DNA from: Firmicutes bacterium AM41-11
GTDB lineage: Bacteria; Bacillota_I; Bacilli_A; Erysipelotrichales; Erysipelotrichaceae
Direction of reading: 5' to 3'
DNA: 64,000 bases
Assembly (NCBI GenBank): GCA_003480165.1
Contig: QUIQ01000001.1
Coordinates: 263,029-327,028 of the forward strand
Under the pieces are notes generated by a model, which was given only the letters and a program-made list of their open reading frames with translations, did no database searches and had not been told where the DNA came from. Of the stretch, positions 1 to 39,108 are shown in pieces. The translations under genes were made by a program, and so were the position numbers. Each line of letters opens with the position of its first letter. The first letter of the stretch is position 1.

Positions 1-1281
1 TGCCCACCAAATCAATGAAACACCCATCTGTCCATTTCTAACAAAAACGGAAAAAATGCCCGCCAGTGGTAATATGACTATTAGTTGTCTGAGCAATGAA
101 ATCACAAGTGATTCCATACCACCATCCAATGCCTGATAAATCCCCTGATATGCTACATTGATTCCCGCAAAAATAAAGCTGATGGAGATAATTCTCATGG
201 CTCCAATAAAATATTCTCTTGACTGTCCCGCATTAAATAAAGTTGCAAAAGCCCCAGGGAAAATTTCTGTAATTGCTACACCAACAATCATAAGTACCAA
301 CGTATAGATCAATCCGTATTTGATTCCATCTTGAATCCTCTTTTTGCTATGCATTCCGTATGCAAAAGCAATAATCGGTGTGATTGCATCCCTAAGTCCA
401 AAGGCGAGGAACAATACAAACTGCTGCACTTTATAGAATAATCCATATGCAGTCTGTGCCGACGGACTGAACTTCAAAATCAGATTCATCACATATACCA
501 TAATAGACATAAGTGCCTGTGCAATAATTGCAGGGAGTCCAATCGCATAGATTTCCCTGATAATTCTACTATCCGGTTTCATATACTTTACGCCATGCTC
601 AAATTCTTTATTTAACTTTATATGGAATATAAACAAAAGTACTGCAGATACTATCTGTCCGATTACTGTTGCATATGCAGCACCTTTCACTCCCATTTCG
701 GGAACTGGTCCGATACCATAGATCATAATCGGATCAAAGATAATATTCACCACTGCACCTACAATCTGACCGAGTGTTGAATAAAGTGAACGACCTGTTG
801 CCTGTAACAGTTTTTCAAACAGTGAAAAGAAGGTAATTCCAAAAGAAATTACACAGCATATTCTTAAGTAGCTTGTTCCCATTGAAATAACTTTCGGATC
901 AACGGTCTGTGATGAGATATATGCTTTTACTCCCAAGATTCCAAACACTAGACACACCACATAAATAATTACTCCAAGAAATAAACTGTTTCCTGCAACT
1001 TTTGCAGCTTTTTTAACATTGCCCTGTCCCAGTGTTCTTGCAAGAAGCGCATTTGTTCCCACACCTGTTCCGATTCCAACTGCTACCATGAGCATCTGAA
1101 CTGGAAACACCAGTGTCAGCGCATTTAGTGCCGCCTCACTTCCTGATCTCATGTTTCCAACAAAGGCACTGTCTACAATGTTGTAAACCGCCTGCAATGC
1201 CATAGATAAGATCATTGGTATTCCCATCTGAACCATAAGCTTATTTACCGGCATCTCCTTCATCTTGTTACTTTCTGCCAT
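1..1281 (-). CDS. MATE family multidrug efflux transporter (3' end outside window)
   Basis: This is a membrane antiporter of the MATE family that exports drugs or metabolites using an Na+ or H+ gradient. The 427 visible codons start [20 protein letters not shown] and continue into the family's first helices with [13 protein letters not shown] and LARTLGQGN, followed by many hydrophobic segments. The family usually has about 450 residues, so only the last helix is cut off by the window edge. The ATG at 1281 has an AAGGAAGGA ribosome site ten bases upstream. It sits alone behind a long leader with two terminator-like hairpins, beside a decayed transposase, and its base use differs by eye from the genes after 2.2 kb. 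I infer recent acquisition. The family call is firm; the substrate is unknown. Confidence 0.9.
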
Positions 1282-1307
1282 CTTAACTTAATCCTTCCTT
1301 TCTGCAA

Positions 1308-1363
1308 AAAAAGTGTGTACTTACCTCATAAGCTGGACTTACGCTGATAAGCTACACACTTTT
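1308..1363 (-). terminator. Leader hairpin 2 before the MATE gene, attenuator-like
   Basis: Read on the minus strand, the arm AAAAGTGTGTA pairs perfectly with TACACACTTTT, and the stem extends by CTTATC/GGTAAG after one bulged G. It is followed by seven T residues only about 25 bases before the MATE start codon, so it has the form of an intrinsic terminator inside the leader. Its loop carries AGCGTAAGTCCAG, nearly identical to the loop of hairpin 1. I infer conditional termination; the trigger cannot be read from the sequence. Confidence 0.75.
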
Positions 1364-1387
1364 AACTGCGTTATATATTTTCATCAT
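1352..1387 (-). CDS. Possible 11-residue leader peptide of the MATE gene
   Basis: Two adjacent ATG codons open a reading frame MMKIYNAVKSV whose TAG stop lies inside the 5' arm of leader hairpin 2. A ribosome paused on this frame would cover that arm and could stop the terminator from forming, the layout known from ribosome-mediated attenuation of antibiotic-resistance genes. I see no good ribosome binding site in front of it. An in-frame GTG lies 18 bases further upstream. Treat it as a hypothesis. Confidence 0.35.
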   Translation of the reverse strand: MMKIYNAVKSV

Positions 1388-1405
1388 GTGCGACAGCAAG
1401 TGCAC

Positions 1406-1455
1406 AAAAAAACGAGCAACAAAACTGGATTTACGCTAGTTTGCTACTCGTTTTT
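1406..1455 (-). terminator. Leader hairpin 1 before the MATE gene, promoter-proximal terminator
   Basis: On the minus strand AAAAACGAGTAGCAAA pairs with TTTGTTGCTCGTTTTT (16 pairs, two of them G-T), closing a loop with AGCGTAAATCCAG, and is followed by a run of seven T. It begins within a few bases of the predicted transcription start, so most transcripts would end at once unless termination is prevented. It resembles hairpin 2 in size and loop sequence but not in stem sequence. The structure could also terminate plus-strand transcripts. Confidence 0.75.
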
Positions 1456-1459
1456 AAGC

Positions 1460-1488
1460 ATTATATTTTTCTATTTGGGAAAAGTCAA
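1460..1488 (-). promoter_or_regulatory. Consensus promoter of the MATE leader transcript
   Basis: On the minus strand TTGACT and TATAAT are separated by exactly 17 bases, close to the sigma-A consensus. It points at the two leader hairpins and the MATE gene. It ends about 20 bases from the first recognisable codon of the transposase remnant, so the MATE unit and the remnant are directly adjacent. Confidence 0.75.
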
Positions 1489-1510
1489 ATCCAAATTGTA
1501 AATAGAAAAT

Positions 1511-2036
1511 GGATTTGAAATTGAAGAAGAGGATGGAAGTATACGATACGGAAAGAGTAAAGAAAACCGGCCGAATCCTATTATCGGTATGGGACTGTTT
1601 ATGGATAGAGACGGCATTCCTTTGACATATTCTCTATTCTCTGGAAATCAAAATGAACAGCTAAGAAGTTTAATTCTGTTCATGACAGAGCCTATGTCAT
1701 TACGCAATCCATCAAGAAACTAAAGAAAGAAGATGGCAGATAGAGGAATGTTTCCGCATTCTAAAAACAGAATGCAAAGCCAGACCCATCTATCTTCAAT
1801 TAGAAGACCGAATCGATGCACACTTCTTAACATGTTTCTGTTCTTTACTAGTCATTCGTTTATTATCCAATAAACTGGATAATAAATATACAATTGGTGA
1901 ATTACTTGAAACATTAAGAACCATGGAACTGACCGATACAGACCAGGGTTCATATCTTCCAAGTTACACAAGAACAGCTCTGACCGATGATCTACACGAA
2001 ACATTTGCTTCAGAACCGATTATCAGATCCTTCTAA
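1511..2036 (+). pseudogene. Decayed IS1634-type (DDE, IS4-superfamily) transposase
   Basis: Three fragments of one transposase lie in order but in different frames. The first reads YGKSKENRPNPIIGMGLFMD and continues to PLTYSLFSGNQNEQ. The second reads KKFNSVHDRAYVITQSIKKL and ends at a stop near 1742. The third reads RWQIEECFRILKTECKARPI and runs to the stop at 2036. These match the usual middle, late-middle and C-terminal blocks of the family. The N-terminal half and two internal stretches are missing, so it is not functional. No terminal inverted repeats can be assigned. It marks an old insertion next to the MATE unit. Confidence 0.8.
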
Positions 2037-2099
2037 AGAAGAAAGTCCGCTCGATTATTAAGTCTACAAAATAATCTACGCAGAACAGGTACAAAGCTA

Positions 2100-2146
2100 A
2101 AAAGTGGCTCAAAACCCTTGAAATAAGGGCCTAAGCCACTTTTTTA
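2100..2146 (+). terminator. Long terminator after the transposase remnant
   Basis: AAAAGTGGCT pairs with AGCCACTTTT around an inner hairpin CCCTT/AAGGG, and TTTTTT follows. It lies about 60 bases after the transposase stop and probably belonged to the insertion sequence. It is nearly symmetrical, so it could also stop leftward transcription from the mutarotase operon. Confidence 0.7.
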
Positions 2147-2214
2147 ATCCTGTAAGTGTTAAAGACAGGATTATACCTTAACTTGCACTTAAAAAGAGTG
2201 CCGAAGCACTCTTA

Positions 2215-3078
2215 TCAACAAATTTCGATTTGGTAAGAAGGCGTAAACTTTTCGTTTGGTGCTAAAATCTGTGTTCCTTCTCTTTGATAGAAAGAAGTGT
2301 GATTGACATCAAAATCCGCATGACCATACCAAGGTTCAATACATAAGAATTCTGAATGTTTTGGATGCGTCCAAATAGCCAAGTAAGGGAAATCCTTAAA
2401 ATGCACACGTAAACGATCTTGGTCTTTATACGCCAAAGTCACATAGTTTGATTGGAAGTCTTTATAAATAATTGTTTTATATTCATCAATATCTTCATAG
2501 TTTAAATGCCAAACATCCAATTCCGTATCTACCCATTTAGAAGGTTTAACGAAAGTTTCATCAAACAACAATTGTTTGGCAGGTTCTTGTTTTTCAAAAG
2601 TTAAGGTATAATCCGTAAAAGCTTCCCCAGCTCTTTCAGGAACGCGGAAAGCCGGATGCAAGCCAAAACTAAATGGCATATCTCTAGAACCCGTATTTTC
2701 AATCACATAGTTGATCTTTAAAGTTTTCTTTTCTAAACGATATTGAATTTCATAATGGAATTCAAAAGGATATTGCGCTAAAGTTTCTGCATTTGAATCA
2801 TACGTAAAAGTCAAACAATCATCCTGCATCAGACCAACACAAGTCGCATAACGAATCAAGCCATGGTTTTTCATGGCATACGTTTTACCATCAATCGCAT
2901 ATTCTTTGGAATAGGTATTTCCAACCAAAGGAAAGAGCGTCGGATTCTTTCCGGACCAGCCTTGATCTCCCTGGTACATCAATTCAACATCGTTTTCTTT
3001 ATCAATAAAATGTTGAATCTGCCCTCCATCTTCAATACATTCCAAACGACAAAATTCATTTTCTAGTACATAGCACAT
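2215..3078 (-). CDS. Aldose 1-epimerase (galactose mutarotase) family protein, LacX-like
   Basis: The 287-residue protein belongs to the galactose mutarotase-like superfamily, probably the LacX branch that acts on hexoses or sugar phosphates in the cytoplasm. Supporting blocks are LFPLVGN, the family histidine in KNHGLIRY, FGLHPAFRVP, and the late acidic segment in CIEPWYGHADF. The ATG at 3078 has AGGAGG eight bases upstream and overlaps the end of the HAD phosphatase gene by 16 bases, so the two are co-translated. That pairing suggests a role in sugar or sugar-phosphate housekeeping, but the substrate is unknown. Confidence 0.85.
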   Translation of the reverse strand: MCYVLENEFCRLECIEDGGQIQHFIDKENDVELMYQGDQGWSGKNPTLFPLVGNTYSKEYAIDGKTYAMKNHGLIRYATCVGLMQDDCLTFTYDSNAETLAQYPFEFHYEIQYRLEKKTLKINYVIENTGSRDMPFSFGLHPAFRVPERAGEAFTDYTLTFEKQEPAKQLLFDETFVKPSKWVDTELDVWHLNYEDIDEYKTIIYKDFQSNYVTLAYKDQDRLRVHFKDFPYLAIWTHPKHSEFLCIEPWYGHADFDVNHTSFYQREGTQILAPNEKFTPSYQIEIC

Positions 3079-3848
3079 TTTTTCATCCTCCTAAGGTAGT
3101 GATAGATTCCATCTTCTTGAATCGATCCAATCACACAATCTGCACTTTCTTTGCAGGCTTTTTGGGCGTTACCCATCGCAATTCCTAAATCTGCCATTTT
3201 CAACATAGCCACATCGTTATCTCCATCCCCGAAACATACAATTCGCTGTAAATGAAATAGCGTTTTCACGTAAGCAATCGCATCACTTTTATCACAATGT
3301 TTCGGACGGATTTCTATACAATCACTATAATAAACAACACTACAGTTGCTTAAAAACTGTGCCAGCTTTTGTTTCTGCTGTGGCTTATCAAAATAAATAA
3401 GCATATTATAAACATCTTCATTTTGATAAGGCTTATACGAAGGAATGGTCAAATAACAATGCCAACAAACTTCCCGCATTTTCTGACGCCTTTCCAAAGA
3501 ACCCCAATGCACCGAATTCATAGTAGAATACTTCCAAGCCATACCTTCCCTTTGACAAAAAGCAGAAATCTCTTCTACAAAGTCTGAGGCAAAACAGCTT
3601 TCTTTTAAAACCTTTTGATGACCATCTACAATCAGAGGACCACCATCAAATATTTTTGCATCAAAGGCAAAATTACGTAGTTTACCAGGCAAATGTTGCC
3701 ATTCAGCTTGGGCTCTGGAAGTTGCAGCAATGACGACATTGCCATCCGCATGTAAGGCTTCTAAAGCCTTGAGTGTATTGGGTGAGCATTCATGGAATTT
3801 ATGATCGTATAAGGTTCCATCTACATCAAAAAAATAGCCTGCTTTCAT
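3063..3848 (-). CDS. Cof-type HAD superfamily phosphatase
   Basis: This cytoplasmic haloacid-dehalogenase-fold hydrolase has 261 residues. The nucleophile motif is FDVDGTLYDH near residue 8, motif II is ATSRAQ near residue 43, and the C-terminal metal motif is CFGDGDNDVAMLKMADLGIA. The large cap in the middle and the final GDGDND block place it in the Cof/YbiV group, which dephosphorylates sugar phosphates and other small phosphates. It overlaps the mutarotase gene downstream by 16 bases. The patatin-like gene lies upstream with only 32 bases between. The substrate cannot be called from sequence. Confidence 0.88.
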   Translation of the reverse strand: MKAGYFFDVDGTLYDHKFHECSPNTLKALEALHADGNVVIAATSRAQAEWQHLPGKLRNFAFDAKIFDGGPLIVDGHQKVLKESCFASDFVEEISAFCQREGMAWKYSTMNSVHWGSLERRQKMREVCWHCYLTIPSYKPYQNEDVYNMLIYFDKPQQKQKLAQFLSNCSVVYYSDCIEIRPKHCDKSDAIAYVKTLFHLQRIVCFGDGDNDVAMLKMADLGIAMGNAQKACKESADCVIGSIQEDGIYHYLRRMKKCAMY

Positions 3849-3880
3849 GCTCTAATAGTAACAAAAAAGATTAAGCAATA

Positions 3881-4735
3881 CTACTTAACCTCACAAAATT
3901 CTTTAATCTGATCCATACGTTCCATCGTTTCATCATAGCCAAGTTGAAACCAAGGATGTAATTTTTTTGGATCAGTTGTATAACGGGTAATCCCTAAATC
4001 TTTATGGGGACGTAAAACCAAGGCTTTTCCGTCTTTTTCCAATTGATCGACAAGACCCCATTGTTGGTTATAACGTTCATGACGTTTCTTTAAATCTTGA
4101 ACAATCACATCATCTTTATAAACCAGTTTGGCCAAACGCAATTGCCAATTTGGTGCGGGTTTGCGTACATAACCTACTTCTTTGGTTGAAATCACAATAT
4201 GTTTCTGGTTGCCTTGGCGAATACTCTGTACAATACTAATCATATCCACTAAACCAGCATCCATATATTTCTGTCCTTGAAACATATAAGGATGCGTTAG
4301 AAGCAACAAGGCACAACTCGCTTTCACAAGCGTTTGTGATTCATCCAAATACTCTTTGCCATAATATTCGACCGCATGCGTTCTCATATTATAAAGACCA
4401 AAATCCATCTTCGAAGAACTAGATTGAAACGCCTGCATATCCAATTTTTCCCGACTTTCAATAAACGCATTGGTGGATTCGATCCCATATATACTCTTTT
4501 CTTTAAAAAGAGGTTTTAAACCAACAACACCCGGTTGACAAGGTGCTTGAATTCCCGTTAATTCCAATCGAGGAATTTGTCTAGCCACATAAGAAGTCAA
4601 GATTTCACAACCAGCACTAATTCCTACGGTATACGGTATATATATTTTTTCTTCCAAGAAAGCTTTTAAAACCCCAGCCGAATAAGCTGCTTTGGTTCCG
4701 CCGCCTTCGACAACCAATCCCATTTTCTCAAACAT
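3881..4735 (-). CDS. Patatin-like phospholipase family protein
   Basis: This 284-residue hydrolase has the patatin Ser-Asp dyad. The oxyanion loop is EGGGTKAAYSAG near residue 10, the nucleophile serine is in GISAGCE near residue 40, and the catalytic aspartate is in DAGLVD near residue 158. It is closest to the bacterial YjjU/YlbK branch, whose members hydrolyse acyl lipids, though few substrates are known. There is no signal peptide, so it should act inside the cell or at the inner membrane face. The ATG at 4735 has GAGGAA seven bases upstream. It leads the three-gene unit that ends with the mutarotase. Confidence 0.87.
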   Translation of the reverse strand: MFEKMGLVVEGGGTKAAYSAGVLKAFLEEKIYIPYTVGISAGCEILTSYVARQIPRLELTGIQAPCQPGVVGLKPLFKEKSIYGIESTNAFIESREKLDMQAFQSSSSKMDFGLYNMRTHAVEYYGKEYLDESQTLVKASCALLLLTHPYMFQGQKYMDAGLVDMISIVQSIRQGNQKHIVISTKEVGYVRKPAPNWQLRLAKLVYKDDVIVQDLKKRHERYNQQWGLVDQLEKDGKALVLRPHKDLGITRYTTDPKKLHPWFQLGYDETMERMDQIKEFCEVK

Positions 4736-4857
4736 AGTAATTCCTCACAATCGATAGACATTATACATGGAATTGAAACGATAGAAAATAGCTAAAACTT
4801 TCTTTTTACCTAGTTTTAGAAAAATTCTTTCGCTTTCTTTTCCTAAATTCCAAAAAG

Positions 4858-4895
4858 AAAAGCTGATAAGTTGAATCTAATCAACTTTTCAGCTT
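4858..4895 (-). terminator. Terminator of the ppaC-pepT operon
   Basis: On the minus strand AAGCTGA and AAGTTGA pair with TCAACTT and TCAGCTT around ATTAGA, with small mismatches, followed by a T-rich tail. It begins at the pepT stop codon. Confidence 0.75.
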
Positions 4896-4897
4896 CG

Positions 4898-6082
4898 TTA
4901 TTGCGTAACAATAGTTTTCACAACTTCTACCATCTTTTCCATCTTCGTAATAGATGCAAATTCATAAACTCCATGATGATGGAAGGTGCCCGTTCCCAAA
5001 TTCGGACAAGCCAGACCCATTTCCGTCAAGCGAGCTCCATCGGTACCACCGCGTACCGGAATCGAAACCGGCTCAATCCCTAAAGATAGTAGAGCCGCTT
5101 TCGCTTTTTCAACTGGTTTTTTATCTTGCATAAAATCAGCCATATTATAATACTGGTCTTTGATTTCAACACTAAAACGAGGTCCATATTTATCATTTAA
5201 GGCATCACAGATCTGTTGGAGAACCAGCTTTTTCCGGGCAAATTTTGTCTTGTCATGATCTCGCAACAAGTACACCAATTGCGCGTGTTCAACCGCACCT
5301 TGCATTGAAACCAAATGGTAGAAACCTTGTCGGTCACAAGTCGTTGCAGGTGTTTGATCATTCGGCAAACATTTCGCAAAATCCATTGCCAGTAAAGATG
5401 CATTGACAAGTTTGCCCTTCCCTTCTCCAGGATGAATAGCCGTACCTTGAATATGCACAATAGCTTGTGCCGCATTAAAGTTTTCCCATTCTACATTATC
5501 GATACGATCCCCATCAACGGTATAGGCATAGGCACAAGGAAACTTCGTTAAATCAAATTGATCCGCTCCACGACCAATTTCTTCATCCACCGTAAACGCT
5601 ACACAGATTGGTGCATGCGATAGATTGGATGCTTTCAGCTGTTCAATAGCTTCTAAAATAATCGCAATACCAGCTTTATCATCGCCACCTAGTAAAGTTG
5701 AACCATCCGTCACAACTAAATCATCACCAATACATGCCGCAAGTTTCGGATAGGCATCTGGATGCATAGAAATTTTGTCATTTAATTGAATCGTCGATCC
5801 ACCGTATTCTTTGATTACGCGTGGATGTACATTGGCACCACTACATTCTGCTGCGGTATCCATATGTGCACATAAACCAATCGTATCTTTTTGGGAATCT
5901 CCATCCAATTGACAATAAAGAATCCCGGTTGAATCCAAGATAACTGAATCAAAGAGTTCTCTGCATTCTTGTTCTAAAACTTTCGCAAAAGTCATTTGTT
6001 TATCCGTACTTGGAGTAGTTGTTGAATTCTCATCCGATTGGGTATCATAACTAACATATTTTAAAAAGCGTTCTAAAATCAT
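4898..6082 (-). CDS. pepT: Peptidase T (tripeptide aminopeptidase)
   Basis: This cytoplasmic M20-family zinc aminopeptidase releases the N-terminal residue of tripeptides. The 394-residue length is normal. Metal and catalytic blocks are GLCAHMDTAAE near residue 72, GGDDKAGIA near 130, the catalytic glutamates in VDEEIGRGAD near 165, and late GGTDGARL and HHHGVYEF motifs. The ATG overlaps the pyrophosphatase stop as ATGA with no clear ribosome site, so its translation is probably coupled to the upstream gene. The family call is firm. Confidence 0.95.
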   Translation of the reverse strand: MILERFLKYVSYDTQSDENSTTTPSTDKQMTFAKVLEQECRELFDSVILDSTGILYCQLDGDSQKDTIGLCAHMDTAAECSGANVHPRVIKEYGGSTIQLNDKISMHPDAYPKLAACIGDDLVVTDGSTLLGGDDKAGIAIILEAIEQLKASNLSHAPICVAFTVDEEIGRGADQFDLTKFPCAYAYTVDGDRIDNVEWENFNAAQAIVHIQGTAIHPGEGKGKLVNASLLAMDFAKCLPNDQTPATTCDRQGFYHLVSMQGAVEHAQLVYLLRDHDKTKFARKKLVLQQICDALNDKYGPRFSVEIKDQYYNMADFMQDKKPVEKAKAALLSLGIEPVSIPVRGGTDGARLTEMGLACPNLGTGTFHHHGVYEFASITKMEKMVEVVKTIVTQ

Positions 6083-38857: not shown

Positions 38858-39108
38858 TAAAAAAAGCTTTCGACCTATAGGACGAAAGCGAAACTAACGT
38901 GTTACCACCTATTTTTATAAGATAATCACTTATCTTACCTCAGAAAGTACAAATATACTCTAACGCGATAACGGGCGCATCCGTCATGACTTACCTATCA
39001 GCCACACGACTCCAAGTCCATCTTCTATATCCTTCTTCCTGTTCATTTCCACCAGCAGAACTCTCTAATAGGATCGGGTATATATACTCTACTCTTCTTC
39101 GTCAATTT
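38858..39108 (-). promoter_or_regulatory. T-box riboswitch leader of metNIQ
   Basis: The leader has all parts of a tRNA-sensing T-box. On the minus strand these are a long Stem I region with AGAGAG and GGTGG distal-loop blocks (near 39050-39070), a Stem III hairpin AAGATAA/TTATCTT near 38925-38942, the T-box AGGTGGTAACACG (38898-38910), and a terminator CTTTCG/CGAAAG with seven T (38858-38890). The segment ATAGG just at the T-box can pair with CCTAT in the terminator loop to form the antiterminator. The best specifier candidate is ATG at 38985-38987, giving methionine, which fits the operon. The leader fills most of the 350-base gap before metN. Confidence 0.88.

Follow-up and report, generated by a model that had tools for sequence, protein, structure and literature searches.

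A conserved RNA element of about 30 nucleotides overlapping terminators ahead of MATE efflux genes is a candidate orphan riboswitch

In a 64,000-nucleotide (nt) stretch of the genome of Firmicutes bacterium AM41-11 (contig QUIQ01000001.1, positions 263,029 to 327,028; hereafter the window), a gene for a MATE efflux transporter (1–1281, minus strand, start codon at 1281, 3' part beyond window base 1) is preceded by a leader that carries two copies of a conserved RNA element, each overlapping a predicted intrinsic terminator. On sequence comparisons, we consider it rather probable that this element is an orphan riboswitch, a ligand-binding ON switch embedded in the terminator; it would be expected to allow transcription to proceed into the efflux gene.

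The basic anatomy of the leader agreed with the initial annotation of this DNA. The efflux protein matched PF01554 (5.7e-35) and TIGR00797 (score above cut-off), as expected of a MATE transporter. The promoter TTGACT-17-TATAAT (1460–1488, minus strand) matches the consensus at 11 of 12 positions and is the sole such match within positions 1–6000, a region with 9 promoter-like sites against a shuffle mean of 18.8; a likely ribosome-binding site of the MATE gene, AAGGAAGGA, was recognized from the sequence at 1292–1300 (minus strand). The leader from 1460 to 1265 folds at -57.4 kcal/mol, compared with -42.2 ± 4.0 kcal/mol for shuffled versions (z -3.8; none of 200 as low). The shared core, AGCGTAARTCCAG, is present exactly twice in 64 kb, at 1425–1437 and 1333–1345 (two more sites have two mismatches), and both copies lie inside long hairpins, each followed by a T run. 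These terminator hairpins, of 46 and 55 nt, fold at -16.0 and -23.6 kcal/mol, and the two elements, by their standard pairs alone, at -1.3 and -1.0 kcal/mol. A terminator scan limited to loops of 3–8 bases listed neither hairpin.

Element 1 (1421–1454, minus strand) is formed by a helix P1, AAAAC (1454–1450) with GUUUU (1425–1421), and a helix P2, GC with GC, separated by an internal loop whose strands are the conserved GAGUA and GUAAAUCCA; the covariance model R1 matched it at 1452–1423 with 39.9 bits. Terminator 1 (1406–1455, minus strand, T run 1412–1406) was assigned from folds to the geometry termed type A below, and its 3' arm pairs in the predicted fold with the 5' half of element 1. 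Element 2 (1330–1361, minus strand; R1 match at 1360–1331, 38.1 bits) has a different P1, AAGU (1361–1358) with GCUU (1333–1330), and the same conserved core, with GUAAGUCCA. Terminator 2 (1306–1364, minus strand, T run 1312–1306), likewise assigned from folds, is of type A with an extra inner stem, so that its apex is more than an open loop.

Across genomes, the consensus is a hairpin of about 30 nt, 5'-(P1)-GWGUN-GC-linker-GC-GUAADUCCR-(P1')-3', in which P1 has 3–4 base pairs (bp), P2 is GC/GC, sometimes with one more pair, the internal loop is asymmetric (5' GWGUN, 3' GUAADUCCR) and the linker between the core halves measures 4–9 nt (searched range 1–10). The initial annotation had proposed AGCGTAARTCCAG as a conserved loop acting as a recognition element. 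Its conservation was upheld, but it is one half of a two-part core, the other half of which, GUNGC, is conserved too, and it belongs not to a terminator loop but to another hairpin, in two parts, whose formation would compete with that of the terminator; in the terminators of type B, the supposed loop is itself paired inside the stem.

A listing of cores revealed that the bases preceding GWGUNGC are complementary to those following CCR. This complementarity was quantified in 110 non-redundant copies out of 179, with 2000 shuffles as a control: the P1 pairs -3/+0, -4/+1, -5/+2 and -6/+3 were formed in 97, 96, 83 and 63% of copies, compared with 83, 44, 74 and 40% after shuffling, and all four exceeded every one of the 2000 shuffles. 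The pair -4/+1 (shuffled 44% ± 4) occurs in all four Watson-Crick types (AU 34, GC 25, UA 29, CG 9). Beyond the fourth pair the 110 copies contained no pairing signal at all, and sliding the register of P1 by -1, +1 or +2 gave z of at most 1.6 (2.1 in type B alone). A pair counter applied to 61 sequences found 67 cells changed on both sides, compared with 18.4 ± 4.1 in shuffled alignments (0/500). The predicted P1 helix covaries as RNA pairs in homologues, and in homologous leaders the core is kept together with this covarying helix; the initial annotation had named a lack of such conservation as grounds for refuting its proposal.

A later, relaxed pattern required P2 and ignored P1. Among the matches listed, L445 and L446 have P1, as does L444, judged by eye, if anchored on its GTGGT; P2 contains U-A in L446 and L447 and U.G in L444 and L445, the first set having solely C-G. 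Two other matches, L443 and L448, had an unpaired P1 and were taken as chance. In L392, the UCC of the core is replaced by ACC.

The relation of the element to its terminator was examined in a catalogue of 234 distinct instances, with class limits set by the analysis itself; it was compiled from family places that had no locus yet, from places mostly outside MATE leaders and from loci of the four pattern scans. A terminator accompanies 182 of these instances, one is unclear, 26 are intergenic without a terminator and 25 overlap reading frames. Two geometries were distinguished among the 182. In type A (123 copies, and both window copies), the terminator 3' arm pairs with the YGWGUNGC side and GCGUAADUCC stays near the loop; in type B (59 copies, L266 and L278 among them), GCGUAADUCC is itself the partner of the 3' arm. 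The conserved core is thus constant while the predicted terminator overlapping it differs. We then filtered for at least three of the four P1 pairs plus a G at -2. This filter was passed by 165 of the 182 terminator-bearing copies, but by only 4 of the 51 instances that overlap a frame or have no terminator, so that 165 of the 169 passing instances have a terminator by the criteria used here. In all 165 filtered copies, the predicted terminator fold retains none of the four P1 pairs and occupies at least four bases of the 5' half of the core or at least five of the 3' half. By these folds, element and predicted intrinsic terminator exclude each other, which is an arrangement expected of a riboswitch: a conserved structured element upstream of genes, exclusive with its expression platform.

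Position relative to the promoter is also regular, with a promoter just before most copies and a T run just after. A -10 box (at least 5/6) was found in 119 of the 134 filtered copies that are single or first in their leader, 103 of them with the box 10–16 nt before GUNGC; it was found in 13 of the 31 second copies and at 103 of 540 control positions further upstream. From this spacing, the predicted transcript start lies near the first base of P1. A tandem is optional, second copies making up 31 of the 165 and single or first ones 134; the "double lock" of the initial annotation does occur, but as a variant and not as the rule. Among 79 MATE-relative loci, 26 combine an identity of at least 83% with available upstream sequence (L002–L025, L028, L029), and 23 of these contain two exact core copies within 250 nt; the exceptions are L018 with one core, L019 with two that flank a small gene, and L028 with one exact and one shortened core. 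These orthologous leaders have promoters similar to that of the window and keep promoter and cores, but not the spacer. Two loci with MATE identities of 55 and 54% (L026, L027) have a single copy, and in the 50 loci at 46% identity or less the covariance model, which recovers both window copies, found no element at E values up to 1.

To describe the distribution, we used the pattern GTDGC-N-GCGTAADTCCR, with the reversed pattern as control. The pattern was present in all 28 genomes carrying relatives of the window MATE gene (control 0) and in 108 of 299 Lachnospiraceae-family genomes (control 11); a copy with a terminator was found in 81 of these 108, and one that also passes the P1 filter in 71. 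Combined with a T run, the pattern occurred in 30 of 391 genomes at class level and in 13 of 398 at phylum level (control 2 in each), and the covariance model detected the element in 12 of 348 genomes, two of them (L392, L393) without the exact pattern. Several matches in ileS-like genes, identified by eye, are coding and were taken as chance. The viral-contig scan returned 88 stretches, 80 of which, together with two phage records, gave 84 instances; six passed P1 and G, and of these L080, L081 and L112 look real. The other eight stretches (L164–L171) entered the catalogue of 234 inadvertently; L168 is among the 182 with a terminator, and none passes the P1 filter. L080 and L081 are unannotated faecal records named "Bacteriophage sp." that carry the element (L080 also a MATE-like start), and both are probably bacterial DNA.

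For 136 of the 165 filtered copies, a MATE gene lies downstream, with a frame that begins no more than about 700 nt away. MATE segments of 300 amino acids (aa) or longer, 131 in all, grouped into two clusters at a cut of 30% identity (82 and 49; genes with tandem leaders enter twice), each containing both terminator geometries. According to the record titles, MATE pumps behind the element belong to gut commensals, among them Roseburia, Blautia, Anaerobutyricum and Coprococcus. Other targets were identified by Pfam as MFS (L270), CarD-like (L357 and L271, the latter having been classed as frame-overlapping), DUF2798 (L262), old yellow enzyme (L317) and PadR (L378), and by eye as CarD-like (L272, L392, L446), MFS (L273, L274, L276) and TetR (L246); copies at L330 (CFA synthase) and L355 (kinase), which do not pass the P1 filter, were left out of this count. 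At L272, a yjdF azaaromatic riboswitch (2631–2729, minus strand) lies about 1 kb from the element preceding the CarD-like gene, and on a Roseburia plasmid (L083) the element and its MATE gene follow a divergent gene for a folate ECF S-component.

The pump of the window also appears to have travelled. Its protein is 94% identical to proteins of Lachnospiraceae metagenome-assembled genomes. A patatin-like gene near it (3881–4735), the single neighbour whose relatives were placed, has its named relatives in Catenisphaera (72%) and Faecalicoccus (69%), of the Erysipelotrichaceae and kin. Because a Lachnospiraceae-like pump thus stands beside an Erysipelotrichaceae-like gene, the MATE gene and its leader were probably acquired by horizontal transfer.

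We propose the following mechanism for the riboswitch. Because the terminator (-16 to -24 kcal/mol) is far more stable than the pairs of the element (about -1 kcal/mol), the terminator would win without ligand and the gene would be off by default. A toxic or signal molecule at sufficient level would bind the internal loop once P1' has emerged, trapping the element before the 3' arm of the terminator is made, so that transcription would continue into the efflux gene; two copies in series would give a tighter shut-off or a steeper response. The downstream genes suggest a substrate or inducer of multidrug efflux as the ligand. We prefer an RNA sensor to a protein because of the unrelated downstream genes, the probable transfer beside genes of another class, the aptamer-like internal loop and a design resembling that of the HMP-PP riboswitch discussed below; presence of the element before unrelated gene families, and with a probably transferred pump, is in keeping with a self-contained sensor.

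Several observations weigh against a riboswitch or loosen the argument for it. P1 is short and A+U-rich, P2 has 2–3 bp, and RNAalifold alone does not predict P1. P1 was first spotted in a listing and then tested on that same catalogue, and the apparent fixity of pattern-internal bases and of the linker range is partly due to selection. Before the pair counter was applied, 5 of 66 rows without P1 were dropped, whereas the 110-copy test kept such rows; two of its five measures, pairs with a double change (279/500) and further pair types (56/500), were not above shuffles. Among the 182 copies with a terminator, 17 did not pass the P1/G filter (10 lie before MATE genes), and in 27 of the 108 family genomes with the pattern no copy has a terminator, raw matches being partly chance or coding. 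Finally, the downstream genes do not form one pathway, which fits a stress-responsive protein as well.

That last point leads to the main rival, possible though on balance unlikely, in which a dedicated, stress-activated RNA-binding antiterminator protein stabilizes the element and prevents termination, as at ribonucleic antiterminator (RAT) sites. The diverse targets (MATE, MFS, CarD-like, PadR, TetR) resemble a stress regulon, and the naked element is weak. No such protein tracking the element was found, though one family alone was profiled, and the element has probably moved with its pump gene beside genes of another bacterial class. The profiled family comprises proteins of 79 aa (MKRVKAACICQTLHF...GNYLD) without a Pfam match above cut-off, present in 19 of 299 family genomes, with 6290 database matches (loci L295:1310–1546, minus strand, L019, L307, L112, L229, L326, L004 and L360). 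Carriers are enriched for the element (a filtered copy is present in 14 of 19, Fisher 3e-6, and the raw pattern in 17 of 19), yet the protein is missing from most element-bearing genomes (of the 71 family genomes that have a filtered copy, 14 encode it) and was rejected as the trans-acting factor. The element lies directly upstream of its gene in 7 of 20 loci, where the protein is itself a likely target; some loci place it between two elements and the MATE gene.

Known RAT sites, bound by LicT/SacY proteins through their co-antiterminator (CAT) domains, are stems with two internal loops in sugar operons (passages of PMC3369936 and PMC9981650). On these descriptions, the present element shares with RAT a hairpin with an asymmetric internal loop that is exclusive with the terminator (here 165/165), but it has one internal loop and precedes efflux and stress genes; sugar or phosphotransferase-system genes are not its characteristic targets, 136 of 165 copies preceding MATE.

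Two further alternatives are both improbable. If the core were a DNA operator for a repressor just past the promoter, with the hairpins as incidental terminators, its location within about the first 35 transcribed bases of most copies would be explained, but not a linker that varies from 4 to 9 nt, a P1 that covaries as RNA pairs, second copies tens of bases further on (13/31 with a -10 box) or the terminators of 165/169 P1-passing instances. Equally doubtful is that these are simply two constitutive terminators, or a mobile repeat, without any part in regulation: the hairpins are strong and have T runs, but the covarying helix does not belong to the terminator, unpaired bases are conserved and the gene association is consistent.

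Drug-inducible resistance genes elsewhere are controlled by ribosome stalling on leader open reading frames (ORFs), and the initial annotation had extended this model to the window; the anatomy fits antitermination of efflux, but the leader-ORF part was rejected. The 11-codon frame MMKIYNAVKSV (1352–1387, minus strand) exists and ends within the 5' arm of hairpin 2, but that a drug-stalled ribosome on it frees the MATE gene is extremely unlikely, and we judge the frame non-functional: it occurs in 1 of 36 distinct tandem leaders and has no ribosome site there, unlike a conserved translated leader ORF of the erm/tet type, core-to-core distances vary from 31 to 134 nt, and most single or first elements begin at about the predicted transcript start, with no room for a preceding ORF.

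Among known regulatory RNAs, the HMP-PP (thiS) riboswitch has an unusually small aptamer almost wholly within the stem of an intrinsic terminator (PMC6478431). As described there, it resembles the present element in being small, overlapping a terminator and controlling termination; it differs in serving thiamin-precursor genes, whereas here efflux genes follow and one core is disrupted by two terminator geometries. Rfam gave no match of this type at the element, the presence of that family in Rfam 15 being unchecked. The guanidine-IV riboswitch and the Gd4v motif each consist of a pair of hairpins linked through a pseudoknot, of which the second is the terminator (passages of PMC7736828 and PMC9788692). 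On the same passages, they likewise occur upstream of MATE genes and are ON or presumed ON switches with a terminator, and Gd4v is a gut-enriched orphan; here, by contrast, there is a single 30-nt hairpin near the transcript start. Identity with them was rejected, because GUNGC follows a -10 box at 10–16 nt in 103 of the 134 copies that are single or first, with no room for an earlier hairpin; Rfam gave no guanidine-IV or Gd4v match at the element, the family's presence in Rfam 15 again being unchecked. ANTAR targets require a pair of stem-loops, each loop having A1 and G4 (passages of PMC3369936), and share with the window leader, so far as described there, the overlap with a terminator and two similar loops; most copies here stand singly (of the 165 that pass the filter, 134 are single or first and 31 second), and in type B the shared sequence is paired within a stem, so this identity was rejected as well. 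Mimicry of 16S rRNA was also discarded: helix 35/36 contains UUAAGUCC and CGAGCGC permuted, and shuffled rRNA matched in 106 of 500 cases.

Rfam searches of the 64-kb window at the gathering threshold returned T-box and tRNA only; in the leader, at E values up to 5, the one match was a plastid psbA 3' untranslated region (25.2 bits, cut-off 55.8, E 0.0087). In 18 element-bearing loci, no recurrent family was found at the element, one small RNA match (E 0.0004, below its cut-off) lying across the L278 copy but on the opposite strand; 19 other MATE-relative loci, of which L026 and L027 have the element, returned nothing there. None of these matches is a credible one for the element. Searches of open-access main texts showed no description of the element, nor did a search with the letters of the core, judged by title and start of abstract among the matches listed. 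Passages of two RNA-motif surveys (PMC11109978, PMC8632094) contain neither "efflux" nor "multidrug", and those of PMC12934955, on gut Lachnospiraceae, are unrelated to it. The RNA element is apparently undescribed. A broader proposition, on which our judgement is evenly balanced, is that it represents a new riboswitch class, among the smallest known, whose ligand would be a molecule of the anaerobic gut, toxic or signalling, and which would turn on multidrug efflux by several unrelated pump families across Clostridia, with a 30-nt sensor coupled to termination in two opposite geometries and moving between bacterial classes with the pump gene. A compact and widespread switch standing before MATE pumps of two distant clusters, before MFS pumps and before CarD-like genes would mark out a regulon and provide a direct assay of its inducing signal, and one sensor with two terminator wirings offers a natural comparison.

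Two other features of the window were observed. Adjoining the MATE promoter, broken frames at 1503–2036 (plus strand) resemble by eye the remnant of an insertion sequence transposase; four separate frames within this region had no Pfam matches. Further away, a T-box leader was identified at 38875–39108 (minus strand) at the Rfam gathering threshold.
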